DNA from: Methylocystis sp. H62
Lineage (GTDB): Bacteria; Pseudomonadota; Alphaproteobacteria; Rhizobiales; Beijerinckiaceae
NCBI RefSeq assembly: GCF_015709515.1
Contig: NZ_JADNQZ010000058.1
Span: forward strand, 186,001 to 250,000
DNA length: 64,000 nucleotides
Reading direction: 5' to 3'
Below, one piece after another: positions 10,449-38,857 of this stretch; position 1 is the first letter of the stretch, and each line of letters begins with the position of its first letter. The position numbers were made by a program, and so were the translations under genes. The notes under the pieces were generated by a model that worked only from the letters and a program-made list of their open reading frames with translations, did not search any database and was not told the origin of the DNA.

Positions 10449-10504
10449 TCCGTCGATCAAAGCGCCAACCGGAGTCCAGGTTAAGCGATACGGGACACAA
10501 GTCG

Positions 10505-14491: not shown

Positions 14492-14508
14492 AGTAGAGGA
14501 CTGCGATC

Positions 14509-16847: not shown

Positions 16848-16868
16848 AACATAAAGAGGCGCGAGAGC

Positions 16869-18132: not shown

Positions 18133-19487
18133 AACTCGACTCCATCAGAGCGATCGCCAACGCCGTTCTTTACGAGGGCTACATCCTTTATCCCTATCGG
18201 CCATCGTCAATAAAAAATCGTCAGCGCTGGACGTTCGGCGGGGTCTTTCCGAAGGCGTTCGATCAGCAAGGCGACGCCTCGCGCATGGGGACGCAGGTGC
18301 TCTTGCGGGGCGGAGAGCAGGCGGCGTTCAACGTCCATTTTCGTTTCCTGCAGGTCATGACGCGCGAAGTCGGACAGCTGACGACGCCGACGCGAGAGCT
18401 TCCGGTAGAGGGCGAGCCGGCGCTGACGCGCGTTTCGAGCTTCAATGTCGACGGTCAAGAGTTGCTGGCCTGGGAGGAGGCGATCGAACGGGAGATCGCC
18501 ATAGGGCCGCTACGGCCCGCCGATATTCGAGGCGCCGCCAGCGTGACGCCATTCTGCATTAAAGGCGCGCGCGAATTCGAGCCAGTCCGAGATCGGAGCG
18601 GTCGCATCGTCGCCGCTCTCATTCGCACGTCGTACAAAATCCAGGGCGTCGTCGAAGCGAAGGCGGAGAAGCTCGCGCCTGATTTGTGGAAGCTGACGAT
18701 CGGAATCGAGAACGTCACGCCGCTTTCGGGCGCGGTTCGTGAGGAACGCGCAGCCGCCCAACTTCGCGCTTTCGCCTCGACGCATGCGATCCTCACCGTT
18801 GAAGATGGCGCATTCATTTCGTTGCTAGATCCTCCCGACGATCTGCGTGAGGCTGCCGGGGAGTGCCGGAATGTCGGCGCCTTTCCGGTGCTGGTGGGGG
18901 GAGAAGACAACAGCGCTATGCTCGCGTCGCCGATCATCCTCTATGATCATCCGGCGATCGCGCCCGAAAGTCCCGGCGACCTCTTCGACGGCACTGAGAT
19001 CGACGAAATCCTGACGCTTCGTATCCTCGCGATGACCGACGCCGAGAAACGCGAGATGGCGTCCGTCGACGCCCGTGCGCGCGCGCTTCTGGAACGCACG
19101 CATGCTCTGACCGCCGAGGACATGGCGCGGCTGCATGGCGTCATGCGCAATCACCCCTCTCAGGCCAGCCAAATTGAACCGCCGCCGATGGGCGGGGACC
19201 ATGAGAAGCCTCGCCTCGTCTCGCTGCTCGAGAGCGGACGCAGTCTATGCGTCGGCGCCCGCGTGCGACTGCGCCCCAAATCGGGCGGCGACATCATGGA
19301 TATCGCGCTCAAAGACAAGATCGCCGTCGTCGAGGCGATTGAGCGCGATTTCGAGGACCGGATCCATGTCGCGGTGACGTTGATTGACGATCCGGGCCGG
19401 GATCTCGGCGCGGCGGGCTTTCCCGGACATCGGTTCTTTTTCAGTCAGGAGGAAATCGAGCCGATCGTTGCGGGAGAGGGGCCATGA
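18129..19487 (+). CDS. conserved group 1h hydrogenase-linked protein, function unknown
   Basis: The 452-residue cytosolic protein starts with ANAVLYEGYILYPYRPSSIKN and continues FGGVFPK and MGTQVLLRGG. Three low-sequence-complexity alpha/beta regions follow, with an ERTHALTAEDMARLHGVMR helix near residue 330 and a small beta domain at the end (ARVRLRPKSGGDIMDIALKDKIAVVEAIERD). Cysteines are few and form no cluster motif. I recall long proteins with this beginning at the same position in actinobacterial high-affinity hydrogenase operons, but not a domain name. Four-base ATGA-type overlaps on both sides tie it to the maturation genes. A chaperone or assembly role is a guess. Confidence 0.65.
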   Translation: MKLDSIRAIANAVLYEGYILYPYRPSSIKNRQRWTFGGVFPKAFDQQGDASRMGTQVLLRGGEQAAFNVHFRFLQVMTREVGQLTTPTRELPVEGEPALTRVSSFNVDGQELLAWEEAIEREIAIGPLRPADIRGAASVTPFCIKGAREFEPVRDRSGRIVAALIRTSYKIQGVVEAKAEKLAPDLWKLTIGIENVTPLSGAVREERAAAQLRAFASTHAILTVEDGAFISLLDPPDDLREAAGECRNVGAFPVLVGGEDNSAMLASPIILYDHPAIAPESPGDLFDGTEIDEILTLRILAMTDAEKREMASVDARARALLERTHALTAEDMARLHGVMRNHPSQASQIEPPPMGGDHEKPRLVSLLESGRSLCVGARVRLRPKSGGDIMDIALKDKIAVVEAIERDFEDRIHVAVTLIDDPGRDLGAAGFPGHRFFFSQEEIEPIVAGEGP

Positions 19488-19972
19488 CCTCGATCCTTGT
19501 CGCCTGCGTCGGCAACATCTTTAGCGGCGATGACGCTTTCGGAGTCGAGGTGGCGCGCCGGCTCGCACGGGTCGCGCTCCCGGACGGGGTAAGAGTCATC
19601 GATTTCGGCATTCGCGGAATCGATCTCACTTATGCGCTGATGGATGGCTACGACGCCGTGATTCTCGTCGATGCGGCGCAGCGGGGGGAAGCGCCGGGCG
19701 TCGTCTCGGTCGTGGAGCCGGATCCGGTTGAGATAGAGAATCCGGCACGGGAGGATCTGTCTCTGTCGCCGCATGAGCTTGATCCCGCGAAAGTTCTTCG
19801 TCTGGCGTCGGCGCTTGGCGGAAATTGCCGCCGCGTCCTGCTGGTCGCCTGCGAGCCGTTGACCTTCGGCGGCGACGAAGGCGTCATGGAGCTGAGCGCG
19901 CCTGTCGCGGCGGCGGTCGGCGTCGCTGCGGAGACCGTCGAAGAGCTGATTGAGGAGATGATGGCGGCGTAA
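19484..19972 (+). CDS. hydrogenase maturation endopeptidase
   Basis: This 162-residue protease of the HyaD/HupD family trims the C-terminal tail of the large subunit after nickel insertion. The nickel-sensing acid residues are in CVGNIFSGDDAFGVEV (GNxxxxDD), followed by IRGIDLTYALMDGYDAVILVDA, where the second aspartate and LVDA strand are typical, and LSPHELDPAKVL carries the conserved histidine. The expected target is the 25-residue tail of HhyL. It overlaps the preceding gene by 4 bases and sits just before the small peptide gene and hypF. Confidence 0.93.
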   Translation: MTSILVACVGNIFSGDDAFGVEVARRLARVALPDGVRVIDFGIRGIDLTYALMDGYDAVILVDAAQRGEAPGVVSVVEPDPVEIENPAREDLSLSPHELDPAKVLRLASALGGNCRRVLLVACEPLTFGGDEGVMELSAPVAAAVGVAAETVEELIEEMMAA

Positions 19973-20021
19973 CATAACGCGATCGCGCTAGCGCCGCGCA
20001 TCCGGTAAATGGAGAAATGTC

Positions 20022-20129
20022 ATGAGCGGATGGGAGATTACAGGTATCGTCCTGGGGCTTATCATCCTCGGACTGCTGATCATGAATGCGAAGGACCTCT
20101 GGCGCTATATCAAGATCAGCAACATGTGA
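20022..20129 (+). CDS. 35-residue single-helix membrane peptide (DUF6893-like)
   Basis: The product begins MSGWEITGIVLGL, has one hydrophobic helix (about residues 7-21) and ends with a basic DLWRYIKISNM tail, giving a probable N-out/C-in inner-membrane peptide. GGAGAA lies 6 bases before the ATG. It is placed between the endopeptidase and hypF, in a different frame from the open stretch upstream of hypF, and would be missed by a length cut-off. Very short proteins of this kind (I recall the label DUF6893) occur beside group 1h hydrogenases. It might anchor the otherwise soluble hydrogenase or its electron acceptor at the membrane; that is a hypothesis. Confidence 0.72.
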   Translation: MSGWEITGIVLGLIILGLLIMNAKDLWRYIKISNM

Positions 20130-20143
20130 GGCCGACAGCGATC

Positions 20144-22543
20144 ATGAGTTTTGCGGCGGTAGAGCCATCGCAGGCGCTTGAATTTCGGGTGCGCGGGCGT
20201 GTGCAGGGGGTCGGCTTTCGCCCGACCGTCTGGCGCATGGCGCGCGAACTAGGGCTTGCCGGCGAGGTTCTCAACGACGGCGAGGGCGTATTGGTGCGCG
20301 TCAGCGGCGACCCGTCGCGCGTCGCTGCCCTGCTTCGACGAATCGAACGAGACCCGCCGCCGCTCGCGCATATCGACAGCATCGAAAGGCTGCGCTACAG
20401 CGGCCAACTGCCACAGGAATTCCGTATCGCCGAAAGCATCGGCGGACCCGCACGCACCCAGGTCGCGCCGGATGCGGCGCTCTGCGGCGCATGCGCGGCG
20501 GAGCTGCGGGATCCAAACGAACGCCGCTATCGCTATCCGTTCACGAATTGCACCCATTGCGGACCGCGCCTCAGCATCGTGACGGCCATTCCCTACGACC
20601 GCGCGACGACCACGATGGCGCCATTCGAGCTGTGTGCGCCCTGTGCGGCGGAATATCGCAATCCGATCGATCGCCGTTTTCACGCTGAAGCGGTGGCCTG
20701 CCCGTCCTGCGGGCCGACTGCGTCGCTCGTTGCATTGGGCCAAGCGGAAGCGCCGCGCGACGGCGGCGCCGATGCGGTCGAAATTGCAGCGCGTCTTATC
20801 GCGCAAGGCGAGATCATCGCGGTCAAGGGACTTGGCGGCTATCATCTCGCATGTGACGCGGCCAATCCCGAGGCCGTCTCGCGCCTGCGGGAATTGAAGC
20901 GTCGTGACGCAAAGCCCTTCGCGCTGATGGCGCGCGATCTTGCCGTTATCCGTCGCTACTGCGCAATCGACGCCGTCGAGGAGCGCGCGCTCAAAAGCGT
21001 TGAGGCGCCGATTGTGCTGCTACGCGCAACAGGTACGGAGCGCCTGCCCGAGGCTGTCGCGCCTGGACTTGCCACGCTCGGCTTTATGCTGCCGACGACG
21101 CCGCTGCATTTGCTGTTGATGGAGCGGTTCGAACATCCGCTCGTGATGACGAGCGGCAATATCTCGGACGAGCCCGCCGTCATCGATGACGCGGAGGCGT
21201 GCCGACAGCTTGCCGAAATCGCCTCCTTCGCATTGATGCATAATCGCGCCATCGCCAATCGTGTTGACGACTCGGTCGTGCGGGTTATGAGCGGGCGGCC
21301 GAGGGTTCTCCGCCGCGCCCGCGGCTACGCGCCCGCGCCGCTGCGGTTGCCGAACGGCTTCGAGAATGCGCCAGACCTGCTCGCGATGGGCGGAGAGTTG
21401 AAGGCGACCTTCTGCCTGGTCAAGGACGGTCAGGCGATCCTGTCGCAGCATCAGGGCGATCTCGAGAATGCGGCGACGTTGGACGATTATAAAAAGAATC
21501 GGGCGCTCTATCAGAGCCTGTTCGATCACGCGCCGTCAGCGATCGTCATCGATCGGCACCCCGAATATCTGTCGTCGAAACTCGGACGCGCGGAGGCCGA
21601 CACACGGGCCTTGCCGCTGATTGACGTTCAACACCATCACGCCCATGTCGCCGCCTGCCTTGCTGAGAACGGCCGACCGCTCCAAGCGCCGCCGGCGCTC
21701 GGGATCGTGCTCGACGGATTGGGCTTTGGCGACGATGGCGCGATATGGGGCGGAGAATTCCTGCTCGCCGACTATCTTGGCTATGAGCGGCTGGCGCGGT
21801 TGAAGCCGGTCGCCATGCCCGGCGGCGCACAGGCGGTGCGCGAACCGTGGCGAAACCTTTATGCGCATCTTAAGGCGGCGGGGGAATTCGATTCGACGCG
21901 CTGTGCGTCCAGCGACTGGGGCGCTTTGGACGGCAAACCGCTTGCGACGATCGACCGGATGATCGCCCAAGGCCTCAATTCGCCATTAGCCTCCTCTTGC
22001 GGACGGCTGTTCGATGCGGTCGCCGCCGCGATCGGCGTCTGCGCCGACCGTCAGGCCTATGAAGGCGAAGCCGGGGCGCGACTGGAGGCGCTCGCGGCCG
22101 CGGCGCCAAACGAGGCGCGCGGCTATGCGCTGAGGATTTCCGCGTCCGCGCTCATCGACATCGATGCGGCGCCGATGTGGCGCGCAATTCTCGAAGACCT
22201 CCGGCAGGGCAATTCGGCGCAAACCATTGCGCGCCGTTTTCACCTCGGTCTGGCGCAGGCGATCACTGAAGTCGCCGTGCGGCTGGCGGCTGCGCGACGC
22301 TTCGAAACGGTGGCGCTGTCGGGCGGCTGCTTCCAGAACCGCCTGCTTTTCGAACGCGTTTACGACGGTTTGTGCGAGGCTGGCTTCACGGTGCTCACAC
22401 ATGCTGACGCGCCCGCCAATGATGGCGGGCTCTCGCTGGGTCAGGCCGCCATCGGCGCCGCACATCTGATGAGAACCGACATGACAAGAGATGGAAAGGA
22501 CGGCGCATGTGCCTCGGCATCCCCGGCTGCATCGTTAGCATAG
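20144..22543 (+). CDS. hypF: carbamoyltransferase HypF
   Basis: HypF makes the cyanide ligands of the NiFe site by transferring a carbamoyl group from carbamoyl phosphate to HypE. Domains in order: acylphosphatase (residues about 8-95, GRVQGVGFRPTVW), two zinc knuckles of the form C-x2-C-x18-C-x2-C (starting CGAC and CAPC), a YrdC-like domain (around VKGLGGYHLACDA) and a Kae1-like C-terminal domain with the HHHAH metal site. ATG 20144 gives 799 residues, a normal length; the frame is open back to 20009 but that part overlaps the 35-residue peptide gene. It overlaps hypC by 37 bases. Confidence 0.96.
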   Translation: MSFAAVEPSQALEFRVRGRVQGVGFRPTVWRMARELGLAGEVLNDGEGVLVRVSGDPSRVAALLRRIERDPPPLAHIDSIERLRYSGQLPQEFRIAESIGGPARTQVAPDAALCGACAAELRDPNERRYRYPFTNCTHCGPRLSIVTAIPYDRATTTMAPFELCAPCAAEYRNPIDRRFHAEAVACPSCGPTASLVALGQAEAPRDGGADAVEIAARLIAQGEIIAVKGLGGYHLACDAANPEAVSRLRELKRRDAKPFALMARDLAVIRRYCAIDAVEERALKSVEAPIVLLRATGTERLPEAVAPGLATLGFMLPTTPLHLLLMERFEHPLVMTSGNISDEPAVIDDAEACRQLAEIASFALMHNRAIANRVDDSVVRVMSGRPRVLRRARGYAPAPLRLPNGFENAPDLLAMGGELKATFCLVKDGQAILSQHQGDLENAATLDDYKKNRALYQSLFDHAPSAIVIDRHPEYLSSKLGRAEADTRALPLIDVQHHHAHVAACLAENGRPLQAPPALGIVLDGLGFGDDGAIWGGEFLLADYLGYERLARLKPVAMPGGAQAVREPWRNLYAHLKAAGEFDSTRCASSDWGALDGKPLATIDRMIAQGLNSPLASSCGRLFDAVAAAIGVCADRQAYEGEAGARLEALAAAAPNEARGYALRISASALIDIDAAPMWRAILEDLRQGNSAQTIARRFHLGLAQAITEVAVRLAAARRFETVALSGGCFQNRLLFERVYDGLCEAGFTVLTHADAPANDGGLSLGQAAIGAAHLMRTDMTRDGKDGACASASPAASLA

Positions 22544-22803
22544 ACAATGCCGACGATCTCGTCGCGACCGTCGACGTGAGCGGGGTGCGCCGGCAGATCA
22601 ACATCAGCTGCATCGTGGATGAAGCCCATCCTGTGGAGTCCTGCGTCGGCGACTGGGTGCTCGTCCATGTCGGTTTCGCGATGAGCAGGATCAACGCGGC
22701 GGAGGCGGCGGAGACACTCAGATTGCTGCAAGAGCTTGGCGAACTCCAAGCCGAACTTGAGACTATGCAAACGCTCACCGACGCAGTCGCGGCGGAGGAA
22801 TAG
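22507..22803 (+). CDS. hypC: hydrogenase assembly chaperone HypC
   Basis: HypC carries the Fe(CN)2CO unit with HypD and passes it to the large subunit. The essential N-terminal cysteine is present in MCLGIPG, followed by the small beta-barrel (VDVSGVRRQINISCI, GDWVLVHVGFAMSRI). The 98-residue length is normal, with an acidic helical tail. The start codon lies inside hypF, so the two are translationally coupled. Confidence 0.95.
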   Translation: MCLGIPGCIVSIDNADDLVATVDVSGVRRQINISCIVDEAHPVESCVGDWVLVHVGFAMSRINAAEAAETLRLLQELGELQAELETMQTLTDAVAAEE

Positions 22804-22808
22804 GGATC

Positions 22809-23501
22809 GTGACCAGCAAGAGCGCATTGGAGGTGCTTTATCCGTTCCTGCATGGCAAGGAGCAGGATCCCGCCGCCGTCGATGCTGGGTTGCTACACTC
22901 TATTGAAGAGAAAGCGCGCGAGTCGCGCGAGACCAGCGTGAGGTTCTTCGCCGAGCAGGCGCCGGTGCTGCTCGACGCGGCGAAGGCGCTTGCCGCCGTA
23001 TATCGACGCGGCGGCCGGATGTTCACCATGGGCAATGGCGGCTCGAGTTGCGACGCCTCGCATGTGGCGGTCGAGTTCCTCCATCCGATCACCGCCGGGC
23101 GGCCGGCGCTTGCAGCCATAAATCTTACCGCAGACGTTGCGATGACGTCCGCCGTGGGCAATGACGTGGGCTTCGAGCATATTTTCGTGCGCCAGCTGAT
23201 CGCTCATGGTCGGGCGGGAGACGGGCTTGTCGGCCTCTCGACCAGCGGCAATTCGGCGAATCTGATCGCCGCCTTCGCCAAGGCGAAGGAGATGGGACTG
23301 ACGACGATCGGTCTTAGCGGCGGCGACGGGGGCAAGATGGCCTCCGCGCACGTCTGCGATCACTGCCTTGTCGTGCCGACGACGTCTGTCCACCGCATCC
23401 AGGAGTGTCACGTCGCCGCCTATCACATACTGTGGGACCTCGTTCACACGCTGCTCGCCGACGATCGCGGCTCGGCCATAAGCAAGGACGTCGCGGCATG
23501 A
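22809..23501 (+). CDS. SIS-domain protein (GmhA-like) of the hydrogenase cluster
   Basis: The 230-residue product has the sugar-isomerase fold of phosphoheptose isomerases: MGNGGSSCDASHVAVEFLHP near residue 75, then LSTSGNSANLIAAFAKAKEMG (SIS phosphosugar loop) near 138. GmhA-like proteins are a known oddity of group 1h hydrogenase clusters, where a heptose pathway makes no sense. The start is GTG 22809, five bases after hypC, and the stop overlaps hypD by 4 bases. That tight packing between two core hyp genes argues for a job in maturation. Its ligand there is not known. Confidence 0.85.
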   Translation: MTSKSALEVLYPFLHGKEQDPAAVDAGLLHSIEEKARESRETSVRFFAEQAPVLLDAAKALAAVYRRGGRMFTMGNGGSSCDASHVAVEFLHPITAGRPALAAINLTADVAMTSAVGNDVGFEHIFVRQLIAHGRAGDGLVGLSTSGNSANLIAAFAKAKEMGLTTIGLSGGDGGKMASAHVCDHCLVVPTTSVHRIQECHVAAYHILWDLVHTLLADDRGSAISKDVAA

Positions 23502-24643
23502 GATATGTCGACGAATTTCGTGATCGGGCGAAGGCCGATGTTCTGGTCAAAGAGATCGAGCGGCTGCTTGCTCACACGGGGCGCGACCAGGATCGGCCGC
23601 TGCAGATCATGGAAGTCTGCGGCGGGCACACGCATACGATTTTCCGCTACGGCGTTGAAGGCATGCTGCCGAAATCCATCGAACTGGTGCATGGGCCCGG
23701 CTGTCCCGTTTGCGTGCTGCCGATGGGACGCGTCGACGATTGCGTCGCCATCGCCGAGCATCCAGAGGTGATTTTCACCACGTTCGGCGACGCTATGCGC
23801 GTGCCGGGCTCACGCAGGAGCCTGTTGCAGGCGAAGGCTGACGGCTGTGACGTGCGCATGGTCTATTCGCCGATGGACGCGCTGGCGCTCGCGCGCCAGA
23901 ATCGTGATCGCGAGGTCGTCTTCTTCGGCATCGGCTTCGAGACGACCATGCCGTCGACGGCGTTGACGGTGCTGCAGGCGGAACGTGAAGGGATCAAGAA
24001 TTTTTCGATCTTCTGCAATCACATCACCATCGTTCCAACGATCAAAGCGATTCTCGATAGTCCGGACCTGCGCCTCGACGGATTTCTCGGACCTGGCCAT
24101 GTTTCCATGGTGATCGGCGACGCGCCCTATGAATTTATCGCGCGTTACTACAAGAAGCCGATGGTGATCGCAGGGTTCGAGCCTCTCGACATTTTACAGT
24201 CGATCTGGATGTTGCTGAGGCAAATCGACGAGGGACGCTGCGAGATCGAAAATCAATATGCGCGCGTCGCGCCAGCAGGGGGCAACGCCGTTGCGCTGCA
24301 GGCGGTTGCGCAGGTCTATGAACTGCGCGAATTCTTTGAGTGGCGCGGGCTCGGCTCGATCGATCACTCTGGCGTCAAAGTGCGCGACGCCTATGCGGGC
24401 TTTGACGCCGAGCGAAAGTTTGCCGTGCCCAATGCAAGGATCGCCGATCCCAAATCCTGCCAGTGTGGTGAGGTGCTCAAAGGAGTCATCAAGCCTTGGC
24501 AGTGCAAAGTGTTCGGTCGCGCCTGCTCGCCGGAGACGCCGCTCGGCGCGCTGATGGTGTCGTCCGAGGGCGCTTGCGCGGCATACTACCAGTACGGCGG
24601 CATAAAGCGGGGACGCGACGAAACGGAGGCGAGCGTCGCATGA
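23498..24643 (+). CDS. hypD: hydrogenase maturation factor HypD
   Basis: HypD, a [4Fe-4S] protein, is the platform on which Fe(CN)2CO is built together with HypC. Diagnostic segments are MEVCGGHTHTIFRYG, VHGPGCPVCVLPMG, FGIGFETTMP and the cluster-binding region near the end (CQCGEVLKGVIKPWQCKVFGRACSP). ATG 23498 (381 residues) overlaps the SIS gene stop by 4 bases; the frame is open upstream to 23405 as shadow only. It is coupled to hypE by the same kind of overlap. Confidence 0.96.
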   Translation: MRYVDEFRDRAKADVLVKEIERLLAHTGRDQDRPLQIMEVCGGHTHTIFRYGVEGMLPKSIELVHGPGCPVCVLPMGRVDDCVAIAEHPEVIFTTFGDAMRVPGSRRSLLQAKADGCDVRMVYSPMDALALARQNRDREVVFFGIGFETTMPSTALTVLQAEREGIKNFSIFCNHITIVPTIKAILDSPDLRLDGFLGPGHVSMVIGDAPYEFIARYYKKPMVIAGFEPLDILQSIWMLLRQIDEGRCEIENQYARVAPAGGNAVALQAVAQVYELREFFEWRGLGSIDHSGVKVRDAYAGFDAERKFAVPNARIADPKSCQCGEVLKGVIKPWQCKVFGRACSPETPLGALMVSSEGACAAYYQYGGIKRGRDETEASVA

Positions 24644-25707
24644 ACATGGTCTCCTTCCCACCCCGGCGTTCGCGCGGCACGGTGCATGTGCCGACCGTCA
24701 CGCTTGCGCATGGCGGCGGCGGCAAGGCGATGAAGGATTTGATCGACGACGTGTTCGTCGAAGCCTTCGACAACCCACTGCTGGCGCCGCTCGATGATCA
24801 GGCGCGGATTGATCTTCTGGACCTCGCCCAATATGGCGACCGGCTGGCCTTCACGACCGACTCATTCGTCGTCGACCCATTGGTGTTTCCCGGCGGCGAC
24901 ATCGGCAAGCTTGCGGTCTGCGGCACGGTGAACGATCTCGCCGTTGGCGGCGCGCTCCCGCTCTATCTTTCCTGCGCTGTCATCATCGAAGAGGGCGTCT
25001 CGATCGATTTTCTGCGGCAGATCGCAAGGTCCATGGCGGCGACGGCGCAGGAGGCCGGTGTGAAGATCGTCACCGGCGACACCAAGGTCGTGAACAAAGG
25101 CGCCTGCGACCAGATGTTCATCACCACGACCGGCGTTGGCGTCGTCGCCGCAGGCGTCGAGCTTGGCGCGCATCGCGCAAGGCTGGGCGATGCGGTGCTC
25201 GTCAACGGGCTGCTCGGCGATCACGGCGCGGCAATTCTTGGGGCGCGCGGTGATATGGCGTTGCAGTCGCCGATCGAGAGCGACTGCGCCCCGCTGCAGG
25301 GCCTTGTCGCAAGCCTGCTCAATGCGGCGCCGAATACGCGGTTCATGCGCGATCCGACGCGCGGCGGCGTCGCGACCGTTCTCAATGAAATCGCCGAAGC
25401 CGCACAGGTCGCCATCGAAATCGACGAGGCCGTCACGCCGCTGCGCGATGAGGTGCGCGGCTTTTGTGAAATTCTCGGCCTCGATCCGCTCTATCTCGCC
25501 AATGAGGGGAAGATCGTCGCAATTGTCCCGCCCGACGAGGCCGAGCAGGCGCTCGAGGCCATGCGGGCGCATCCGCTGGGCCGACAGGCGGCCGTCATCG
25601 GTAGCGTCGTCGCGGGCGAGTCGGGTCGCGTCACCATGCGCACGATTTTCGGCGGCCGGCGCATCGTCGACATGCTGGTCGGCGAGCAACTACCGCGCAT
25701 CTGCTAA
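24640..25707 (+). CDS. hypE: hydrogenase maturation protein HypE
   Basis: HypE dehydrates the carbamoyl thioester on its C-terminal cysteine to a thiocyanate, using ATP. The AIRS/PurM fold is visible from LAHGGGGKAMKDLI through DPTRGGVATVLNEIAE, and the protein ends PRIC, giving the required terminal cysteine. The start at ATG 24640 overlaps hypD by 4 bases and yields 355 residues; an apparent N-terminal extension back to 24496 is shadow. A Shine-Dalgarno AAAGGAG for hypA follows its stop. Confidence 0.96.
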   Translation: MNMVSFPPRRSRGTVHVPTVTLAHGGGGKAMKDLIDDVFVEAFDNPLLAPLDDQARIDLLDLAQYGDRLAFTTDSFVVDPLVFPGGDIGKLAVCGTVNDLAVGGALPLYLSCAVIIEEGVSIDFLRQIARSMAATAQEAGVKIVTGDTKVVNKGACDQMFITTTGVGVVAAGVELGAHRARLGDAVLVNGLLGDHGAAILGARGDMALQSPIESDCAPLQGLVASLLNAAPNTRFMRDPTRGGVATVLNEIAEAAQVAIEIDEAVTPLRDEVRGFCEILGLDPLYLANEGKIVAIVPPDEAEQALEAMRAHPLGRQAAVIGSVVAGESGRVTMRTIFGGRRIVDMLVGEQLPRIC

Positions 25708-25717
25708 AGGAGCCGAC

Positions 25718-26056
25718 GTGCACGAACTCTCGATCGTTTGCAGCATTGTCGAACTGGCGTCGCAGGCCGCGCAAGGGCGTAGCGTGCGCCGCGTGATAAT
25801 CGAGATCGGCAAATTGTCGGGCGTCGAGCCGGACGCTGTGGCTTTCTGCTTTCCGGAAGTCGCCCTAGGGACGCCGGTTGAAGACGCGACGCTGGACATC
25901 CGCGAAGTCGACGCCGAGGCGCGCTGTGATGTTTGCGGCGCTGAGTTTCCCACGCCCGACATGCTGTCGGCGTGTCCTTGCGGCTCTCGCCAGTTTCAGC
26001 GCCTGCGCGGCGAAGAGCTGAACATCAAAAGCATCGAAGTCGAGGAGGCTGCATAA
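25718..26056 (+). CDS. hypA: nickel-delivery protein HypA
   Basis: HypA hands nickel to the large subunit with HypB. The start is GTG 25718, 6 bases after AAAGGAG, giving the invariant MHELS nickel-binding N-terminus. The zinc site is C-x2-C (RCDVCG) paired with C-x-C (ACPCGS). Length of 112 residues is typical. The frame is open far upstream through hypE, but everything before 25718 is shadow. The stop TAA overlaps the hypB ATG by one base. Confidence 0.94.
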
Positions 26057-26994
26057 TGTGCACGAGCTGCGGCTGCCAGGGGCAGGGGACCACGATGACC
26101 AATCTGCAGACCGGCGCGCGCGCGGACATCGCGGCGCCCGAGCATGATTTGCTCGGCGAGGCCCATTCGCATGGGGAGCATGGCCACGGTCATCTTCATG
26201 GCGAACATCAACATGCTCATGATCATCATCACGGGCACGAGCAGGGTCATGCGCACGGGCATGATCACAGCCACGTGCATGCGCATGATCACAGCGATCA
26301 CGATCAGGCACACGAGGAGACCCACCGCCGCCTCGAACTTGAAACGCGCATTCTCGCGAAGAACGACGCGATCGCCGCTAAATGTCGGGCATGGCTTGCG
26401 GGTCGCGAGATCGTTGCGCTCAATCTCGTCAGTTCGCCCGGCGCGGGAAAGACGACGCTGCTCGAGCGCGCCATCGCGGATCTTTCGGGCGCGCTGCCGC
26501 TGTTCGTCATCGAAGGCGATCAGGCGACGTCGAATGATGGCGAGCGCATTCGCGCGGCGGGCGCGCCGGTGGTTCAGGTCAATACCGGAACCGGGTGCCA
26601 TCTCGATGCGGAGATGATCGCGCGCGCGCTTTCCGAACTCAAGCCGAGCGTCGGCTCGCTCCTGTTGATCGAGAACGTCGGCAATCTCGTCTGTCCGGCG
26701 CTGTTCGATCTCGGCGAACACGCCAAGGCGGTCATCTTTTCGACGACCGAAGGCGAAGACAAGCCGCTCAAATATCCGCATATGTTCAGCGCCGCGAAGC
26801 TCGTCATCTTCAACAAGATCGATCTTCTGCCGCATCTCGATTTCTCGATGGAGCGGGCGCGAGAGAATATTCTCCGCGTCAATCCGGATGTTGAGATCGT
26901 CGAAGTCTCCGCCAAGACCGGCGCGGGCATGCAGCAGCTCTACGACTGGATTCGCGCGCAGCGTACGGCGGTGAAGGAACAGGCGCTTGTGTAA
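26056..26994 (+). CDS. hypB: GTPase HypB with histidine-rich nickel store
   Basis: HypB uses GTP to drive nickel insertion. It begins MCTSCGC, the high-affinity nickel site of some HypB proteins, then has an extreme histidine-rich tract with 24 histidines between residues 37 and 90, usually taken as nickel storage. The GTPase domain follows: [14 protein letters not shown] (Walker A), [29 protein letters not shown] and FNKIDLLPH (NKxD). ATG 26056 overlaps hypA, giving 312 residues. It is the last gene of the hydrogenase cluster and faces the next operon tail to tail. Confidence 0.96.
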
Positions 26995-27041
26995 AGACAG
27001 CGGTAAAGGAGTTCTTCCTAAATCGCTGCTTCTTTCACGTC
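26995..27041. terminator. possible bidirectional terminator between convergent operons
   Basis: Between hypB and the convergent transglutaminase gene, AAAGACAGCGG...AAAGGA and TTCCT...CGCTGCTTCTTT form an imperfect hairpin with A-rich and T-rich flanks on opposite sides. It overlaps the last codons of the minus-strand gene. Mismatches make it only a candidate. Confidence 0.33.
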
Positions 27042-27899
27042 GACGCTGACATCCAAATCTTGATCGCCGGCGCCGATGATCACGCCGTCAATCGGCGAAA
27101 CATCCGCATAGTCGCGGCCGATGGCGATGGCGATATGGTCGTTGCCAACGACGATAGCGTTCGTCGGATCAAGGTCGAAGAAGCCAAATTCCGGCCCGCA
27201 CCAAACAGACACCCACGCATGGGTTGAATCGGCGCCTTCCAGCCGCGGCTGGCCTGGCGCTGCGTAGGTTCGAAGATAGCCGCTGACATAGGACGCCGCC
27301 AGGCCAAGCCCGCGTAAAGCCGCGATCATGATATGCGCAAAATCCTGGCAGACGCCGCGACGGCGTTCGAACGCCTGCGCGATCGGCGTCGCAATATGCG
27401 TCGCATCCGGGTCATAGGCGAAGTCGGCATGGATGCGCTGCGTCAGTTCAATGGCGCCTTCGAGGATCGGCCGCCCGGGCGAAAAGCTTTCGCGTGCATA
27501 ATGCGTCGCTGCGTCGAACAGCGGCGCAAAGCGGCTTGCGTAAATGTAATGGGCGGGAGAGGAGGCCGCGAGCGAGTCGGACGCGTAGGCGGCGTTCCTC
27601 ACGATTTCCCAAGCCGGCGTCAGCGCCGGCGCAGGCGGCGGCGCTCGTTCGACTGCGACGCGCGCCGTAAGAGCGATCTGCAGCCTCGTGTGGGGCTTGA
27701 GGATGCGCGCTTCGCAAATTCGGTTCCCTTGAAAGTCAATCCTTTCATTGATGAATTCGGCCGACGGCGAGAGTTCGATGTGGCTGGACAGCAGTGTCTG
27801 GCCGCGATCATTGCGCGGGATCAGGCGCATGGCGCAGCGCGCCGAGGCGACCGGCGCGTCATATTTGTAGATCGTGCGATGGGCGATATCGTAGATCAC
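27018..27899 (-). CDS. transglutaminase-like peptidase family protein
   Basis: The 293-residue protein has the bacterial transglutaminase N-terminal beta domain ([17 protein letters not shown]) and a papain-fold core with catalytic triad Cys184 (RRGVCQDFAHIM), His227 (DSTHAWVSVW) and Asp242/244 (FFDLDP). There is no signal peptide. Bacterial members of this family are thought to cleave or form amide bonds rather than crosslink proteins. It is the last gene of a three-gene operon and overlaps the ATP-grasp gene by 4 bases, so it likely acts on the same product. Substrate unknown. Confidence 0.88.
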   Translation of the reverse strand: MIYDIAHRTIYKYDAPVASARCAMRLIPRNDRGQTLLSSHIELSPSAEFINERIDFQGNRICEARILKPHTRLQIALTARVAVERAPPPAPALTPAWEIVRNAAYASDSLAASSPAHYIYASRFAPLFDAATHYARESFSPGRPILEGAIELTQRIHADFAYDPDATHIATPIAQAFERRRGVCQDFAHIMIAALRGLGLAASYVSGYLRTYAAPGQPRLEGADSTHAWVSVWCGPEFGFFDLDPTNAIVVGNDHIAIAIGRDYADVSPIDGVIIGAGDQDLDVSVDVKEAAI

Positions 27900-30409
27900 G
27901 CGATCCGCGACGGCTGAGAATTTGCGGCGCCATCGGCGCCATGCGTGAAGTAGCGCTCGGCGATTTTATCGGCGAGAGTCATCAGACGTTGCTCAAACCC
28001 AAGAATGATCGCGGCGTCCAGGCGGCGCGCATCCTCCGACTCGAGCTCGGCGCGCAGCTTGACGGAGAGTCGCCGCGGCGGCTCCATGACTCCATCGTCG
28101 CGCAAATTTGGCAGCGCCGCGAGATGTTCGTCGATGCGCATCGCCTGGAAGAGGACGGATCGCGGATTGAACGGATCGAGCATGGCCATGTCGAGGACCG
28201 GCGCCAGTGCGGCGCCGGCGATGTAGCGGGAGCGATAGGTGATCTGCGAATCGAGCAGATCGAGCAGAGCGTCCAGCGTCTCGACCGTCGCGTCGTCGCC
28301 GGCGAACTGTCGGGCGAAGCGGCACGTCCCGACGGCGCGTTCGATTCTCCGCCCAAGATCGATAAAACTCCAGCCGGCGACGCGGTTGAAATTTTCGTCG
28401 ATCAGTCCGGACAACGCCGCCAGCGTATGAAGCGATCGCTCCACAATTTCCAGCGCCTCGGGCTCGGTTATCGCGGCGGCGCCGGCGCGCGTCAGACGCG
28501 TTTCGATGCGTCCGATGAGCTGCCAGACATCTTGGGACAAGCGCTCGCGCACGATCGACGCCGCGCGTCTCGCATTGCGTACGACCGACAACGCGGAACC
28601 GTAATCGTCGGCGCCGGCTGCCGCGGACCATGCAATCTCAGTCGGGTCCATGTCCGGCGCGTCTTCGGGCGCAGCGCCCCAGGCGATCAGCAGTCGCGCA
28701 AGCCGTTCGATCGACTGGCGCCCTTGCAGATCGATGTGCTGAAGTTCGCCCAGCCGCGCCCCGAGCGACCGCACGACGCGCAACGTCGCTTCGGCGCGCT
28801 CGAGATAGCGTCCCATCCAGAAAAGATTATCGGCGGCGCGGCTCGGCAGGTTGCCGAGCGCGCGCACGATCGGCGGATCCTCGTCGGACGGCAGCAGAGT
28901 CGACCATTCGATCGGATGGCTCGTCAACACCCAGACGTCGCTCGATCGCGCGCCGGCGTCCATCGACACGGCGCGCGCATTAAGCCGGTTGGAGACTCGG
29001 CAGAATCCGCCGGGCATCACCTTCCAACCGTCAGCTGTCGCGGCGGCGAACACGCGCAAGGCGAAAGGTCTCGGCGTCAGCCTGCCGTCGGACCAAGCGG
29101 GCGTCGTGGAGAGCTTGACCTGTTCCTGAGCGACATAGTCGACGCCGCGCTGATTTATGGCGTCGATCAGACGCGCGCGCGCCTCGCTGGAGAGCGCGTG
29201 ACCGAGCGCCTCACGACATTCGCCAAATCCCGGGAGCCTGTCGCTGAACGCCCCGCTGATCGCATAGTCGCTCAAGGCACTGACAACCTGGTCGCGTTCG
29301 CTTTCGCGTCCGCACCACCACGTCGCGACATTGGGAAGTTTGAGACTCTCGCCGAGCACGCGTTCAGACAGCTCCGGCAGAAAGCTCAACAGCGCGCGCG
29401 ATTCGATAAGACCGGCGCCGGGCATATTCGCGACGACAACGGCGCCGCGACGGATGGCCTCGAACATCCCGGCGACGCCCAGACGCGATGCGGCGTTCTG
29501 CTCCAGCGGGTCGCACCAGTCAGCGTCGACGCGACGCCAAATCGCATCGGCGCGCTTCAAGCCGGCGATGGTGCGCACATGCAGCTTGCCATCGCTCATC
29601 ACGAGATCTTCGCCTTCGACCAGCGTAAGGCCGAGATAGCGGGCGAGATTGACCTGCTCGGAATAGGTCTCGCTCCAAGGGCCAGGCGTCAGCAGGCAGA
29701 TGCGCGGATCAACGCGCTGCGCCGCGCCGGAGATGCTCGCACGGAATTCTCGGAAAAACGGCGCGAGGCGCTCGACGTTCATGTCTCGATAGAGACTTGG
29801 CAGCGCGCGCGACAGGATCATCCGATTTTCTAAGGCGTAACCAGCTCCCGAAGGCGCCTGCGCGCGATCGCCGAGCACCCGCCAGGCGCCATCGGGCCCG
29901 CGCCCGATATCGGCGGCGTAAAAGCGAAGCCAGCGTCCGCCGGGCGGCGCGACTCCGCACATCGGTCGAATGAAGTCAGGCGATCCCGTGATGGCTGCGG
30001 CCGGCAGGGCGCCCTCAGCGACAAGCCGCGCCTTGCCGTAAACGTCATGCAGGATCTGATCGAGAAGTTCGGCGCGCTGTGCAACGCCAGTCGCAATATC
30101 GCGCCATTCTGATTCCGGGATCAGAAGCGGCAAACGCCCTAACGGCCAACTGCGCTCCTTGGTTTCTCCGTGGACCCGGTAGGAAATTCCCATGTCGTCG
30201 ATGCGGCGGCCGGCCGCGGCGAAGCGTTGCTCAAGGCCGATATCGCCGAATGCGGCGAGCGATTCGAGGAATTGGAGCCAGTGCGCACGCGGACATCCAT
30301 CTGGGTCGAGAAGCTCATCCGGCGCGTCGCGCATCGGCGCATATTGCGCGATCCAGGCGGCAACGCGCTGCGACGCCTTGTCCGTTTCAATGGGCCGCTC
30401 AGCGGACAA
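27896..30409 (-). CDS. circularly permuted ATP-grasp plus alpha-E domain protein
   Basis: This 837-residue fusion has an N-terminal circularly permuted ATP-grasp module (about 60-500; landmarks [51 protein letters not shown]) and a C-terminal alpha-E domain starting near residue 515 with [18 protein letters not shown]. In many genomes the two are separate adjacent genes; here they are one chain. ATP-grasp enzymes join a carboxylate to an amine at the cost of ATP, and the alpha-E helix bundle has no known activity. It overlaps the DUF2126 gene by 11 bases and the small transglutaminase by 4. Published genome surveys predict an amide-bond-forming role; no substrate is established. Confidence 0.86.
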
Positions 30410-33400
30410 TGCTCCTCCGAAGATCCAGCGTCAGCGGAAACTCTTGGCCTGGCTCCTCGCGCGGCGGATCGGCAGGCCCGGGCGTGTGCCCATGATCCTG
30501 AAATCGCGCCAAGCGCCGCGCTTCGGCTTCGTTACTGTTGACGGGGAAGGCGTCGTAATTGCGGCCCCCAGGGTGCGTCGCGTGATATACGCAGCCGCCC
30601 AGTGAACGCCTGCTCCAGCCGTCGATGACGTCGAAGGTCAAGGGCGCATGGACCGGCAGCGTCGGATGCAGGCCTGACGGCGGCTGCCAGGCCTTGAAGC
30701 GCACGCCCGCCACCGCCTCGCCGGGGACGCCGGTGTTGGTCATCGGCACGCGGCGTCCGTTGCAGGCGATGACGTGCCGGCCGGGAACGAGGCCCTTGGC
30801 CTTGACCTGCAACCGCTCGAGCGACGAGTCGACGTAGCGCACCGTGGCGCCATTCGCGCCTTCCTCGCCCATCACATGCCAGGGTTCGAGCGCGCCGCGG
30901 ATCTCCAGATGAACGCCGCCGTGCTCGACGCTTCCGGCGAGCGGGAAGCGGAACTCGCGCTGCGCCTCGAACCATTCCTCTTCGAAGTCGTAGCCGGCGC
31001 GGCGCAGATCATCGATCACGCCGAGAAAGTCCTGCCAGACGAAATGCGGCAGCATGAATTTGTCGTGCAGCGCCGTTCCCCAGCGCACCAGATCGCCGTG
31101 CTGCGGCTCCCGCCAGAACCATGCGACGAGCGCGCGCAGCAACAGCTGCTGCGCGAGACTCATGCGGGCGTCCGGCGGCATTTCGAAGGCGCGGAATTCG
31201 ACGAGCCCGAGACGCCCCGTCGGTCCGTCGGGCGAATAGAGCTTGTCGATGCAGATTTCGGCGCGATGGGTGTTGCCGCCGACATCGACCAGCAGATTGC
31301 GGAACAACCGATCGACGAGCCACGGCGGCACATAGCCTTCGCCGGGAGACGGCACCTGCGCCAGGGCGATCTCCAGCTCATACAGCGAGTCGTGGCGCGC
31401 CTCGTCGACGCGCGGCGACTGGCTGGTGGGGCCGATGAACAGGCCGGAGAACAGATAGGATAAGGAGGGATGCCGCTGCCAATAGAGCACCAGACTCTTC
31501 AACAGATCGGGGCGGCGCAGGAAGGGCGAGTCGGCCGCCGTTTTGCCCCCAAGCACGACATGATTGCCGCCGCCCGAGCCGATCTGTCGGCCGTCGATCA
31601 TGAATTTGGCGGTCGTCAACCGCGCCTGCCGCGCGTCCTCATAGAGCGCGGTCGTCGTTTCGACGGCCTCCCGCCATGTGGCGGCCGGGTGAACATTGAC
31701 CTCGATGACGCCGGGATCAGGCGTCACCTTGATCACTTCGAGGCGGGGGTCGTCGGGCGGCGGATAGCCTTCGATGTAGAGCGGCAGCCCGGTCGCCTTG
31801 GCGCTCTCTTCCACCGCCTCGAGCAGTTCGAGATAATCCTCGAGCGTTTCGACCGGCGGCATGAACACGCAGAGATTGCCGTCTCGTGGTTCTATGGTGA
31901 AAGCGGTGCGCACGGCCCCTTCGACAATGGACTGTTCATGTACGTCCTGGCGCGCGGGACCCCCGGGCGTCGCCCCGCCGGCCTGAATGCGGCGAAAATG
32001 GCCGGGTTCGGGCAGCGGCTCGCGGGGCGCGAAGGGATCCTGCGGATAGATGAACGGATATTCGCTTTCGGGGAGCTTGGGCAAGGATGCGACCGGGAGC
32101 CGCAGTCCGATAGGCGAATCGCCCGGCGCCAAGAACAGTTTTCCGCGGCGCAGCGTCCACTTCTCCGAGGTCCAGCGCGACTGTGACTCGGCGCGCGCAT
32201 TCCAGCGCTGAATTGGTAGAACGAAGCCGGTCGGCTTGCTCAGGCCGCGTTCGAACACCCGCATCATGCGCGAGCGCTCCTCCGCGTCGTCGATCTTGGG
32301 ATCGGAGGGATCGACATTGATCGGGAGGACGCTCTCCTTGACCATCCAATGCGCAGGATCTTCGTAAGCCGGCAAGGCATGTTCGGCGCCCACCCCGAGA
32401 CGCTCGGCAAGATCGTGCACAAAGACTTCCGCTGCTGCCGTGGTCGCGCCTTTCGGCTCGGCGATATCGGCGATCAGTTGCGGCTGCGACCAAATCGGTT
32501 TGCCGTCCCGGCGCCAGTAAAGCCCGAAGGCCCAGCGCGGCAGGCTTTCGCCGGGATACCATTTGCCCTGGCCGTAATGCAGAAACCCGTTTGGCGCAAA
32601 GCGTTCGCGCAGCATGCGAATAAGGTCGTCGGCCCGCTCTCGCTTGGTGGGGCCGGTCGCCGCCGTGTTCCATTCTGGGGACTCGAAGTCGTCGATCGAG
32701 ACGAACGTCGGCTCGCCGCCCATGGTGAGGCGAACGTCGAGCGCTTTTAGGTCCGCGTCGACGCTTTCGCCCAGGGCGTCAAGCCGGCTCCATGCGTCAT
32801 CTGAAAAGGGCGCGGTGATGCGCGGCGCCTCATTGATGCGATCGACGCGCATCTCGAAACCGAACTCGACTTGGGCAGGCTCTACGAGCCCCGACAGAGG
32901 CGCGGCGGAACGATAGTGCGGCGCGCTGCATAGCGGCAGATGACCTTCGCCACAAAACAGTCCCGACGTCGCGTCGAGACCGATCCAACCAGCGCCGGGC
33001 AGAAAAACTTCCGCCCAAGCGTGCAGATCGGTGAAGTCGTGATCGGTTCCCTTCGGGCCTTCAATCGGATCGACATCGGCCTTTAACTGGATGAGGTAGC
33101 CGGAGACGAAACGTGCGGCGAGACCGAGCTTGCGCAAGATCTGAACGAGAAGCCAAGCGGAATCGCGGCACGAACCCGATCCCAGCGCGAGAGTCTCTTC
33201 CGGCGCCTGCACGCCAGGCTCCATCCGGATGACGTAGCGAATGTCGCGGTGCAGCCGCGCGTTGAGTTCGACGAGAAAATCAATTGTCCGCATTTTTTGC
33301 CGCGGAAGGCTTCGGACGAAGTCTTCCGTCAGAGGCCCGACGTCGTCGGGTTCAAGATAGGCGGCAAGCTCAATTTTCTGTTCGTCCGGATAAGCGAACG

Positions 33401-33707
33401 GGAATTCTTCCGCATAAGGCTCGATGAAGAAATCGAACGGATTATAGACGGCGAGATCCGCCAGCAGATCGACCTCAATCTTGAATTCGCTCGCGCTATC
33501 GGGGAACACCAGACGCGCCAGCCAATTCCCGTGCGGGTCCTGCTGCCAGTTTATGAAATATTCCGAAGGCGCGATCTTGAGCGAATAGCTCAAGATTTTC
33601 GTGCGGCAATGCGGAGCCGGCCGCAGACGGACGATCTGCGGACCTAGCGCGACCGGGCGGTCATATTTGTAGTGGGTGATGTGGTGAAGAGCGATCTGGA
33701 TCGACAC
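30399..33707 (-). CDS. transglutaminase plus DUF2126 (putative amidoligase) fusion
   Basis: First gene of the operon, 1102 residues. Residues 1 to about 280 form a transglutaminase module ([17 protein letters not shown] start; Cys180 in [10 protein letters not shown], His229 in DLHAWAEVF, Asp245 in GLDATSG). The remaining 800 residues match DUF2126, regarded as a glutamine-synthetase-fold carboxylate-amine ligase; landmarks are [59 protein letters not shown] and [22 protein letters not shown]. The protein therefore holds both a predicted peptidase/transferase and a predicted ligase. It is cytosolic by sequence. Confidence 0.88.
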
Positions 33708-33807
33708 GTTAATCAGCGTCTCGTTTCAGCGCCATTCTCTCAAGAACTGGCGCAGGGCGACTGGGGGAGTTAGCGGGGCCGCGCCGCGCAGTGTCAATCT
33801 GAAGAGC

Positions 33808-33826
33808 CGCCAAAATGGCGGCTTTG
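33808..33826. other. hairpin in the divergent promoter region
   Basis: AGCCGCCA (33808-33815) and TGGCGGCT (33819-33826) form a perfect 8-bp stem around AAA in the 293-base gap between the divergent DUF2126 and metallopeptidase genes. It could be an operator for both directions or a leader hairpin. Nothing else structured is apparent in the gap. Confidence 0.42.
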
Positions 33827-34000
33827 TCCGAAATTGCGGCAATTAGCCTAGCAGGTGAATACGGGCTGCGCATTCAATTGGCGCCGGTATAGGATGCTCC
33901 GGAAGACCGAGTTCCCGAGCGACCGCCGCTCTGTCGTGACCAGGAACATTCCGCCCAGCAGCGCAGTTAAGGCCGCACGCGCGGTTCGGAAAGATCCTCC

Positions 34001-35083
34001 ATGAAAGCCTTTCGATGCCAGGTTTGCCGCCAGAGCATACTTTTTGAGAACACCAAATGCGAAAGTTGCGGGCACACGCTCGGCTATTTGCCGAAGCATG
34101 GCGAGATGACCGCAGTCGAACCCGTCGGTAACGGATGGCGCGCGCACGCTGACGGCGCTCGCGAATATCGCTTCTGCAAGAACTGGGAGCTGCACGGATG
34201 TAATTGGATGGTCGAAAAGGGCGGTCCCTCGGAGTATTGCTTCGCCTGCCAGCATAATCGAACCGTGCCTGATTTGTCGGACGACAAGCGCCACGCCGCG
34301 TGGCGGAAAATCGAAGCCGCTAAACGGAGGCTCTTTTACAGCCTGATCAGACTGAATCTTCCTGCGCCAACGGCGTCCGAGAACGACGGCGAGCCGCTCG
34401 TCTTTGATTTCTTGGCTGAGGAGGCGTCGCAACGGCCGGTGCTGACCGGCCATGACTCCGGACTGATTACGATCGCTTTGAAGGAAGCGGACGACCCCGT
34501 CCGGGAAAAAATGCGCGATGAGATGGGTGAGCCCTATCGTACGTTGCTCGGACATTTCAGGCATGAGATCGGCCATTATTATTGGGATCGCATCGTGCCG
34601 CACTCGCAATATCTTCGGCCGTTTCGTGAACTCTTTGGGGACGAGCGGGAAGACTATGCCGCCGCCCTAAAGAGACATTATGAGGAAGGGCCTCCAGGCG
34701 ACTGGCGACAAAAGCACATAAGCGCATACGCCTCTTGTCATGCATGGGAAGATTTTGCGGAAACCTTCGCGCATTATCTCCATATCGTCGACACGCTCGA
34801 AACCGGTCGTAGCGCGGGGCTCGTGGTGCGGCGGGACGACGGTTCTTCGGCGCGGGTCGAATTTGATCCCTACGGCTATCCCGACATCAATGAGATGGTC
34901 GATAGTTGGCTGGATATTTCGTTCGCGTTGAACAACATCAACCGATCTATGGGTCAGCCCGATATCTATCCCTTCGTGATTTCCTCGGTCGTGAAAGAAA
35001 AGCTGAGCTTTGTCCAAAACCTTCTCATGGATCACGCCCAGCGCCACGTCGCCGTCGCCGCGCCGCGCGCCGCGTGTTGCTAA
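34001..35083 (+). CDS. putative zinc-binding metallopeptidase with N-terminal zinc ribbon
   Basis: The 360-residue protein opens with a zinc ribbon (C6QVC9 and C20ESC23) and further cysteines in FCKNWELHGCNW and YCFACQ, then a metallopeptidase domain with HEIGHYYWD (HExGH zinc motif) near residue 190 and a downstream ESSPSSDWAEDFAET-like element, here CHAWEDFAETFAHYLH. I associate it with the zinc-ribbon_6 / Peptidase_Mx type (DUF2248). It is divergent from the transglutaminase-ATP-grasp operon, and genes of this type are commonly found near that system, so it may cleave the same product. There is no signal peptide. Confidence 0.85.
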   Translation: MKAFRCQVCRQSILFENTKCESCGHTLGYLPKHGEMTAVEPVGNGWRAHADGAREYRFCKNWELHGCNWMVEKGGPSEYCFACQHNRTVPDLSDDKRHAAWRKIEAAKRRLFYSLIRLNLPAPTASENDGEPLVFDFLAEEASQRPVLTGHDSGLITIALKEADDPVREKMRDEMGEPYRTLLGHFRHEIGHYYWDRIVPHSQYLRPFRELFGDEREDYAAALKRHYEEGPPGDWRQKHISAYASCHAWEDFAETFAHYLHIVDTLETGRSAGLVVRRDDGSSARVEFDPYGYPDINEMVDSWLDISFALNNINRSMGQPDIYPFVISSVVKEKLSFVQNLLMDHAQRHVAVAAPRAACC

Positions 35084-38155: not shown

Positions 38156-38857
38156 TCAGTCATCAGCAAGGGCAAAGCGATGAATGAGTCCCCCGATGAC
38201 GGCGCCGACAAGCGGCGCGACCCAGAATAGCCAGAGTTGTTCGAGGGCCCAGCCGCCGACGAAGAGCGCCTGGCTTGTCGAGCGCGCAGGATTCACCGAA
38301 GCGTTGGTGATGGGGATGTCGACCAGATGGATCAGCGTCAGCGCCAATCCGATGGCGATTGGCGCGAAGGCGACCGGCGCGCGACCTTCCGTCGTTCCCA
38401 GAATGACAAGCAGGAAAAACGCCGTCAGCACGATTTCCGCAAGAAGGCCAGACTGCCATGTGTATCCAGCGGGGGAATGTTCGTCATAACCGTTGGCGGC
38501 AAAGCCGTTGGCGAGCGAAAAATCAATGTTGCCCTGAGCGATCTTGAGCAGCACGAACGCCGCAAATGTCGCGCCGAGAAGCTGCACTATCCAGAAGGGT
38601 CCGACGTCCTTCCAGGAGAAGCGGCCGGCCGTCGCGACGCCGAGCGTCACCGCCGGGTTGAAATGGCCGCCAGATACGGGGCCGAAGGCGTAAGCGCCCG
38701 TCAGCACCGTGAGTCCGAAGGCGAGCGCCACGCCGAGAAAGCCGATGCCGAGCTGGGGAAAGCCGGCGGAAATCACCGCGCTGCCGCAGCCGCCGAACAC
38801 GAGCCAAAAAGTCCCAAGAAATTCAGCGAGAAGCCTGCGTGGAAGAGAATGCCGCAT
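38156..38857 (-). CDS. aqpZ: aquaporin Z
   Basis: AqpZ conducts water through the inner membrane. The 233-residue protein has six hydrophobic helices and both half-helix motifs, HFNPAVT (first NPA) and SVNPARS (second NPA). The selectivity arginine follows the second motif and the histidine sits in LTLIHLVDI, as in water-specific channels. The start reads [28 protein letters not shown], typical of AqpZ. It stands alone between a PsiF-like gene and a DUF5996 gene. Confidence 0.95.

Follow-up and report, generated by a model that had tools for sequence, protein, structure and literature searches.

An operon of DUF2126, fused ATP-grasp–alpha-E and transglutaminase genes in Methylocystis as a possible accessory module of a bacterial amide-ligation system

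Computational analysis of a 64,000-nucleotide stretch of the Methylocystis sp. H62 genome (contig NZ_JADNQZ010000058.1, positions 186,001 to 250,000; hereafter the window) identified a conserved three-gene operon and a divergent metallopeptidase gene at 27018-35083. We tentatively propose, at slightly less than an even chance, that the operon belongs, as an accessory module, to the bacterial amide-ligation system that comprises ATP-grasp, alpha-E, transglutaminase and Anbu, and acts by the mechanism set out below. The system itself has already been predicted; what is described here is its DUF2126 branch, with a degraded ATP-grasp and a recurrent metallopeptidase partner.

The three operon genes lie on the minus strand. 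The first (30399-33707) encodes a 1102-residue protein joining a transglutaminase domain to DUF2126, a glutamine synthetase (GS)-like predicted amidoligase; the second (27896-30409) encodes an 837-residue fusion of CP_ATPgrasp_2 and Alpha-E; the third (27018-27899) encodes a stand-alone transglutaminase of 293 residues with Bact_transglu_N and Transglut_core domains. Their coding regions share 11 bp and 4 bp, overlaps that fit a translationally coupled operon. Beyond a divergent intergenic region of 293 bp (33708-34000), a plus-strand gene (34001-35083) encodes a predicted zinc metallopeptidase of 360 residues with Zn_ribbon_DZR_6 and Peptidase_Mx domains. Every named domain of the four proteins was recovered by Pfam at E ≤ 2.2e-15. 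A preliminary description, made from the sequence alone, had read the locus as a coupled operon with a divergent zinc metallopeptidase, together forming an amide-bond synthesis and cleavage system. Gene positions, overlaps and Pfam domains bear out this gene organization, and the combination of transglutaminase, GS-like and ATP-grasp folds with a peptidase was confirmed by Pfam and a GS-fold structure model and is largely conserved as a unit.

Conservation was followed in three sets: the top 80 among at least 593 loci from a DUF2126 alignment (named loci), 190 genomes sampled at class level and 398 sampled at phylum level. A fused ATP-grasp gene was found downstream of DUF2126 in 72/80 named loci, and a transglutaminase gene as well in 69/80. 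Co-occurrence of the four genes in related genomes, the lack of which the preliminary description had named as a refutation, was thus confirmed for the three-gene operon and held in part for the peptidase. In the three loci with the ATP-grasp but no transglutaminase gene, the sequence past DUF2126 ran for ∼3.1 kb or less; among the eight without a fused ATP-grasp, two (L147 and L180) were ended by the contig within 0.6 kb and six were not. The order transglutaminase-DUF2126, ATP-grasp-alpha-E, transglutaminase recurred in most of 28 relatives. Relatives of laboratory Methylobacterium or Methylorubrum strains also carry the set (L132, L138 and L157). Among the named loci, the closest belonged to two Beijerinckiaceae metagenome-assembled genomes and a Methylocapsa (73-76% identity). 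In four loci other genes separate DUF2126 from the fused ATP-grasp; inspected by eye, these had no theme in common. Clustering of the 1,210 predicted genes of the 80 loci returned, beyond the core genes and Peptidase_Mx, shadow open reading frames (ORFs) and clusters, named by eye, resembling transporter ATPases, aldehyde dehydrogenase, LysR regulators and glycogen genes.

The degraded member of the set is the fused ATP-grasp. Both its circularly permuted ATP-grasp domain and its alpha-E domain were recognised by Pfam and in a structure model, and we compared 92 distinct fused sequences with 19 stand-alone relatives. In the numbering of the stand-alone paralogue encoded on contig C55 of the same genome, the reference residues are an E-x-N pair (E182 and N184), an ATP-site lysine (K390) and a glycine-rich loop (GGYG at 396-399). 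The E-x-N pair was present in 19/19 stand-alone and 0/92 fused ATP-grasps; the lysine was present in 19/19 and 4/92, respectively, and the lysine together with the first two loop glycines in none of the fused set, whereas K390, G396, G397, Y398 and G399 were each kept in all 19 stand-alone sequences. The window protein lacks the E-x-N pair, the lysine and the loop. Profile alignment to three E. coli GspS paralogues covered the metal-site stretch only (E 0.065, probability 0.85%). The aligned stretch coincides with what we take to be the GspS metal site (D318, E330 and N332), and the E182/N184 pair is presumably metal-binding; a low-confidence extension of this alignment placed lysine 390 on GspS lysine 533. 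Compared with glutathionylspermidine synthetase and with YgiC/YjfC of E. coli K-12, the window protein is without their residues and carries an alpha-E domain. At the lost site or next to it, conservation persists for other residues (Asp183 in 85/92, Arg184 in 86/92 and Gln186 in 68/92), so the pocket looks selected. The fused ATP-grasp is therefore probably non-catalytic, to judge from these residue losses. Both ligase folds named in the preliminary description are present, but two working ligases are not supported: with E-x-N missing in 92/92 fused sequences and the lysine in 88/92, DUF2126 is the only ligase candidate at the locus without a seen defect.

DUF2126 matched Pfam at 1336 bits, and its predicted structure has the GS fold, matching glutamine synthetases and gamma-glutamylmethylamide synthetase (GmaS). 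Identity to these enzymes was 6-14% in the matched rows, and the DUF2126 model differs from them in an added strand-rich C-terminal part and in the fused transglutaminase domain. Many E, N, H and R columns of DUF2126 were invariant in 20/20 and 28/28 sequences. Both transglutaminases keep their catalytic triad. In the DUF2126-fused domain the Cys-His-Asp triad was present in 20/20 sequences; the separate transglutaminase has Cys184, His227 and Asp244, conserved respectively in 89/89, 89/89 and 88/89 distinct aligned sequences, and matched Bact_transglu_N (8.9e-22) and Transglut_core (8.6e-16) in Pfam and the PDB relative 3isr (1.4e-7). Degradation of catalytic residues, which the preliminary description had raised as a possible refutation, therefore affects the ATP-grasp and spares the transglutaminase triads.

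DUF2126 was found in 29 genomes of the class-level sample, alpha-E in 70 and Peptidase_Mx in 15, 11 of which were strong matches (best E < 1e-70). In the phylum-level sample, 120/120 DUF2126 genomes also carried alpha-E, a co-occurrence that is partly trivial because the operon usually carries its own alpha-E. Counted by eye, an alpha-E match of at least 240 bits, the stand-alone type, was present in 27 of the 29 class-sample DUF2126 genomes and missing from G099 (84% complete) and G127 (74% complete). The DUF2126 operon therefore appears to be accessory to the core ATP-grasp/alpha-E/transglutaminase operon.

The Methylocystis genome (4.54 Mb in 59 contigs) fits this arrangement. Contig C55 holds an intact core operon encoding an ATP-grasp of 508 residues, an alpha-E protein of 317 and a transglutaminase of 306, and a protein query located an Anbu gene on contig C49 (E 2.2e-125). 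Anbu, an NTN-hydrolase, adjoins neither the window operon nor the C55 operon: its gene lies between FemAB-like (PF04339) and Sua5 genes (L232 6645-9667), apart from the ATP-grasp operons. We had considered Anbu absent from the genome when a PF00227 search found only an HslV-like gene, the sole PF00227 match in the window, but rejected this once the protein query recovered the C49 gene. Genomes G359 and G459 each gave one PF00227 match although their loci L215 and L217 hold Anbu, so PF00227 misses Anbu genes. The same-genus genome G360 likewise carries the three-gene operon, the core operon and, at a third place, Anbu; the 7-kb stretch around that Anbu gene (L211) held no FemAB match.

The window metallopeptidase matched Peptidase_Mx (1.3e-104) and Zn_ribbon_DZR_6 (2.6e-30) in Pfam and carries HExxH at residues 188-192, with Tyr243 and Glu250. 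In an alignment of 10 sequences, HExxH was kept in 9 and Y243 and E250 in all 10. Peptidase_Mx (formerly DUF2248) is a predicted zincin whose best FFAS fold match is of the M34 type, as for MtfA (PMC3650047). The window protein is on these grounds a predicted zincin metallopeptidase with putative peptidase activity. An Aurantimonas marianensis copy beside DUF2126 (L147 8721-9896) reads HVVGH for HExxH and may be an inactive copy or a sequence error.

In the phylum-level sample, 69 genomes had a strong Peptidase_Mx match (best E < 1e-60; weak or fragmentary matches in G373, G389 and G458 excluded). Alpha-E was present in 67/69 of these and in 145/329 others (Fisher 1e-18), and DUF2126 in 55/69 and 65/329 (Fisher 3e-21), in tests that ignore phylogeny and genome size. 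Physical linkage is less exposed to these biases. Peptidase_Mx lay within 8 kb of DUF2126 or alpha-E in at least 23/69 genomes and 13/21 families (largest gap 5.6 kb), a lower bound with partner positions picked by eye; by our own arithmetic, genome length alone would give less than 1%. The linked genes were variously arranged: divergent from DUF2126 as in the window (e.g., G211, G271, G491 and G523), convergent after the operon (G397 and G554), ahead of the core operon and sharing its strand (G439), directly after the core operon (G167, locus L113), convergent with alpha-E (G231 and G484), or next to both Anbu and the core operon (G278, G359 and G459). In three loci (L214, L215 and L217) Peptidase_Mx adjoins Anbu itself. 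Among the named loci it was present in 9/80, comprising 4/8 without the fused ATP-grasp and 5/72 with it (p 0.004; two of the eight end at the contig). We conclude that Peptidase_Mx is a genuine but optional partner of the system. There was no sign that it replaces Anbu: taking a second PF00227 match as Anbu, we counted Anbu by eye in 21/40 hand-picked genomes (of the 67 carrying both Peptidase_Mx and alpha-E) and in 24/40 hand-picked alpha-E genomes lacking Peptidase_Mx (plus one single weak match), both figures being undercounts.

Loci L179, L183 and L185, together with L147 as far as its contig extends, have DUF2126 and Peptidase_Mx as neighbours with no fused ATP-grasp seen, possibly a minimal pair. 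Six genomes of one genus (G217, G287, G334, G504, G531 and G549) encode a full Peptidase_Mx plus a second ORF of 355-526 residues that matches only ∼82-167 of the profile and may belong to another HExxH family.

In 2009 Iyer, Abhiman, Burroughs and Aravind (Mol Biosyst 5:1636) reportedly predicted a peptide-tagging system; its parts are reported to include an NTN-hydrolase, an alpha-helical domain and two kinds of ligase, one a circularly permuted ATP-grasp and the other GS-like. By this account, that system shares with the present one an ATP-grasp, a GS-like ligase, alpha-E, a transglutaminase and a peptidase in conserved neighbourhoods; here, by contrast, the ATP-grasp is fused to alpha-E and has lost its catalytic residues, Anbu is on another contig and Peptidase_Mx adjoins. 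The Anbu operons of Pseudomonas and Yersinia (PMC5666114, PMC6376114) have the same ATP-grasp, alpha-E and transglutaminase families, and the C55 operon is such an operon without Anbu next door, whereas in the window operon DUF2126 is an addition and the ATP-grasp is without the E-x-N pair, the lysine and the glycine loop. The Rim and Rlo systems (RimK/RimB and RloABC; PMC12239564) also place an ATP-grasp and a protease in one operon, Rlo with a transglutaminase fold in addition. However, they use a RimK-like ATP-grasp and a retropepsin, and the Rlo transglutaminase is an inactive membrane protein; the window genes match CP_ATPgrasp and Peptidase_Mx in Pfam, and the window transglutaminases keep their triad.

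Published data tie related operons to nitrogen. In B. cenocepacia, I35_5080-5083 comprise DUF404/407, DUF403, transglutaminase-like and large transglutaminase-like genes; an ntrC mutant showed a 6- to 9-fold drop in them, and they were among the targets shared with sigma-54 (PMC5491218). The large protein is, we infer, a transglutaminase-DUF2126 protein. In P. putida, PP_2686-2688 were up 11- to 37-fold under nitrogen limitation in three strains (PMC7801951), and PP_2685 and PP_2688 were higher on nitrate than on ammonium (PMC8050072). Abundance of DUF403/404/407 and Bact_transglu_N tracks that of urea metabolism domains in marine metagenomes (PMC3597751). Biochemical work in PMC5666114 and PMC6376114 is mainly on Anbu: the ATP-grasp of the Y. 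bercovieri Anbu operon releases phosphate from ATP and Anbu was without peptidase activity there (PMC6376114), and Anbu binds proteasome inhibitors (PMC5666114). These nitrogen and NtrC ties, like the complete C55 operon and the C49 Anbu gene, go beyond the preliminary description. A one-mismatch sigma-54-like site was found before 2/16 core operons, that of Methylocystis included, too few for a claim. Sigma-54/NtrC control of the window operon was itself considered and rejected on the promoter searches reported below.

For the window operon, computation shows the parts and how they associate; the reaction, the order of its steps and the role of nitrogen we infer as follows. DUF2126 would be the operon's one working ATP-dependent ligase and would form an amide, glutamyl-type or other, at a carboxylate group belonging to a peptide or protein. 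A substrate or partner supplied by the core operon would be bound by the fused ATP-grasp-alpha-E, acting as a non-catalytic subunit, and the two transglutaminase domains would transfer or hydrolyse the amide. Peptidase_Mx would trim the product or remove it, and Anbu may do the same; if Pseudomonas and Burkholderia are a guide, the pathway may serve nitrogen-short cells. A more specific version, which we hold to be unlikely, has a re-tooled pocket of the pseudo-ligase fusion receive the product of the core operon and present it to DUF2126, with Peptidase_Mx as a dedicated eraser parallel to Anbu, making a two-stage write-and-erase isopeptide system in nitrogen shortage.

Several observations weigh against the accessory-module proposal. 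For none of the four proteins do we know a substrate, a product or an activity. A literature search, mostly without full texts, likewise found no substrate, in agreement with the preliminary description, nor did it turn up experiments on DUF2126 or Peptidase_Mx in connection with this operon. Six DUF2126 loci have ∼3.4 kb or more of downstream sequence and no fused ATP-grasp gene there. G360 carries the operon but gave no Peptidase_Mx match, so the metallopeptidase is optional. Mapping of the ATP-grasp onto a characterised enzyme rests on a weak match (E 0.065) and presumed residue roles. The intergenic region (33708-34000) held no sigma-54-like site at two or fewer mismatches, and sites with at most one mismatch were not enriched before DUF2126 (1/79, against 13/964 control genes), so the nitrogen link is not carried to this organism. 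Finally, a peptide-synthesis role of the Anbu system was judged less likely than protein degradation in PMC5666114.

Other explanations read the same genes differently. Should the fused ATP-grasp be active, binding metal and ATP through other residues, two working ligases could build a peptide or tag; the loss of E-x-N in 92/92 and of the lysine in 88/92, and the 0/92 sequences with the lysine and two loop glycines, make this quite improbable, as do the GspS positions aligned at weak scores, which correspond to the metal and ATP site. Alternatively, the operon may salvage nitrogen by breaking down isopeptides or amidated peptides, with the transglutaminases as amidases, Peptidase_Mx and Anbu as peptidases and DUF2126 in activation or repair. 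In other genera, related operons are controlled by nitrogen limitation or NtrC (PMC7801951, PMC8050072, PMC5491218), which is consistent with this, as is the balance of domains at the locus: three predicted for transfer or hydrolysis and a single ligase candidate in which no defect was seen. However, a conserved GS-like ligase costs ATP and is unneeded for salvage alone, and neither a regulatory site before the operon nor a transporter beside it was found; we regard salvage as unlikely.

Ligases could also mark proteins for degradation, with Anbu or Peptidase_Mx degrading or untagging them in a ubiquitin- or pupylation-like cycle. Both PMC6376114 and PMC5666114 cite Iyer et al. 2009 as having predicted such tagging, and the adjacency of Peptidase_Mx to Anbu in L214, L215 and L217 is expected of two proteases of one pathway. 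Yet Anbu was inactive on standard substrates (PMC6376114, PMC5666114), and no tag gene was recognised, although none was systematically searched for; this explanation seems to us rather doubtful. Least probable, and very much so, is that Peptidase_Mx is an unrelated neighbour whose association reflects large genomes with many accessory genes. In 46/69 Peptidase_Mx genomes the gene was not seen linked to DUF2126 or alpha-E, and the co-occurrence statistics carry the biases noted above, but linkage in at least 23/69 genomes and 13/21 families, in several arrangements, is far above the <1% expected.

Alpha-E, the marker of the system, is widespread, being present in 212/398 phylum-sample genomes. 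The analysis points to DUF2126 and the core ATP-grasp as ligation candidates, to Peptidase_Mx as a candidate peptidase and to nitrogen shortage as a condition; failure of the fused ATP-grasp in an assay should not count against the pathway.

Pfam matches place hydrogenase genes at one flank of the locus and, at the other, a gene for an lldD-type L-lactate dehydrogenase. The former (window 13406-26994, plus strand) encode NiFe hydrogenase small and large subunits, HypF, HypD and HypE-type and HypB-type proteins, and are just preceded by a gene matching Alginate_exp (10427-13054). No transporter was recognised next to the operon, as the preliminary description had noted; the closest transport gene seen was aquaporin Z (38156-38857). 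Within the intergenic region, a GC-rich inverted repeat with an AT-rich loop (33806-33822), which gave no match in an Rfam search, could be a leader stem-loop or terminator-like. On the minus strand at 56225-58279, ∼21 kb beyond the metallopeptidase gene, lies a pair encoding an HslU-like AAA ATPase and an HslV-like proteasome-family protein that is not Anbu.
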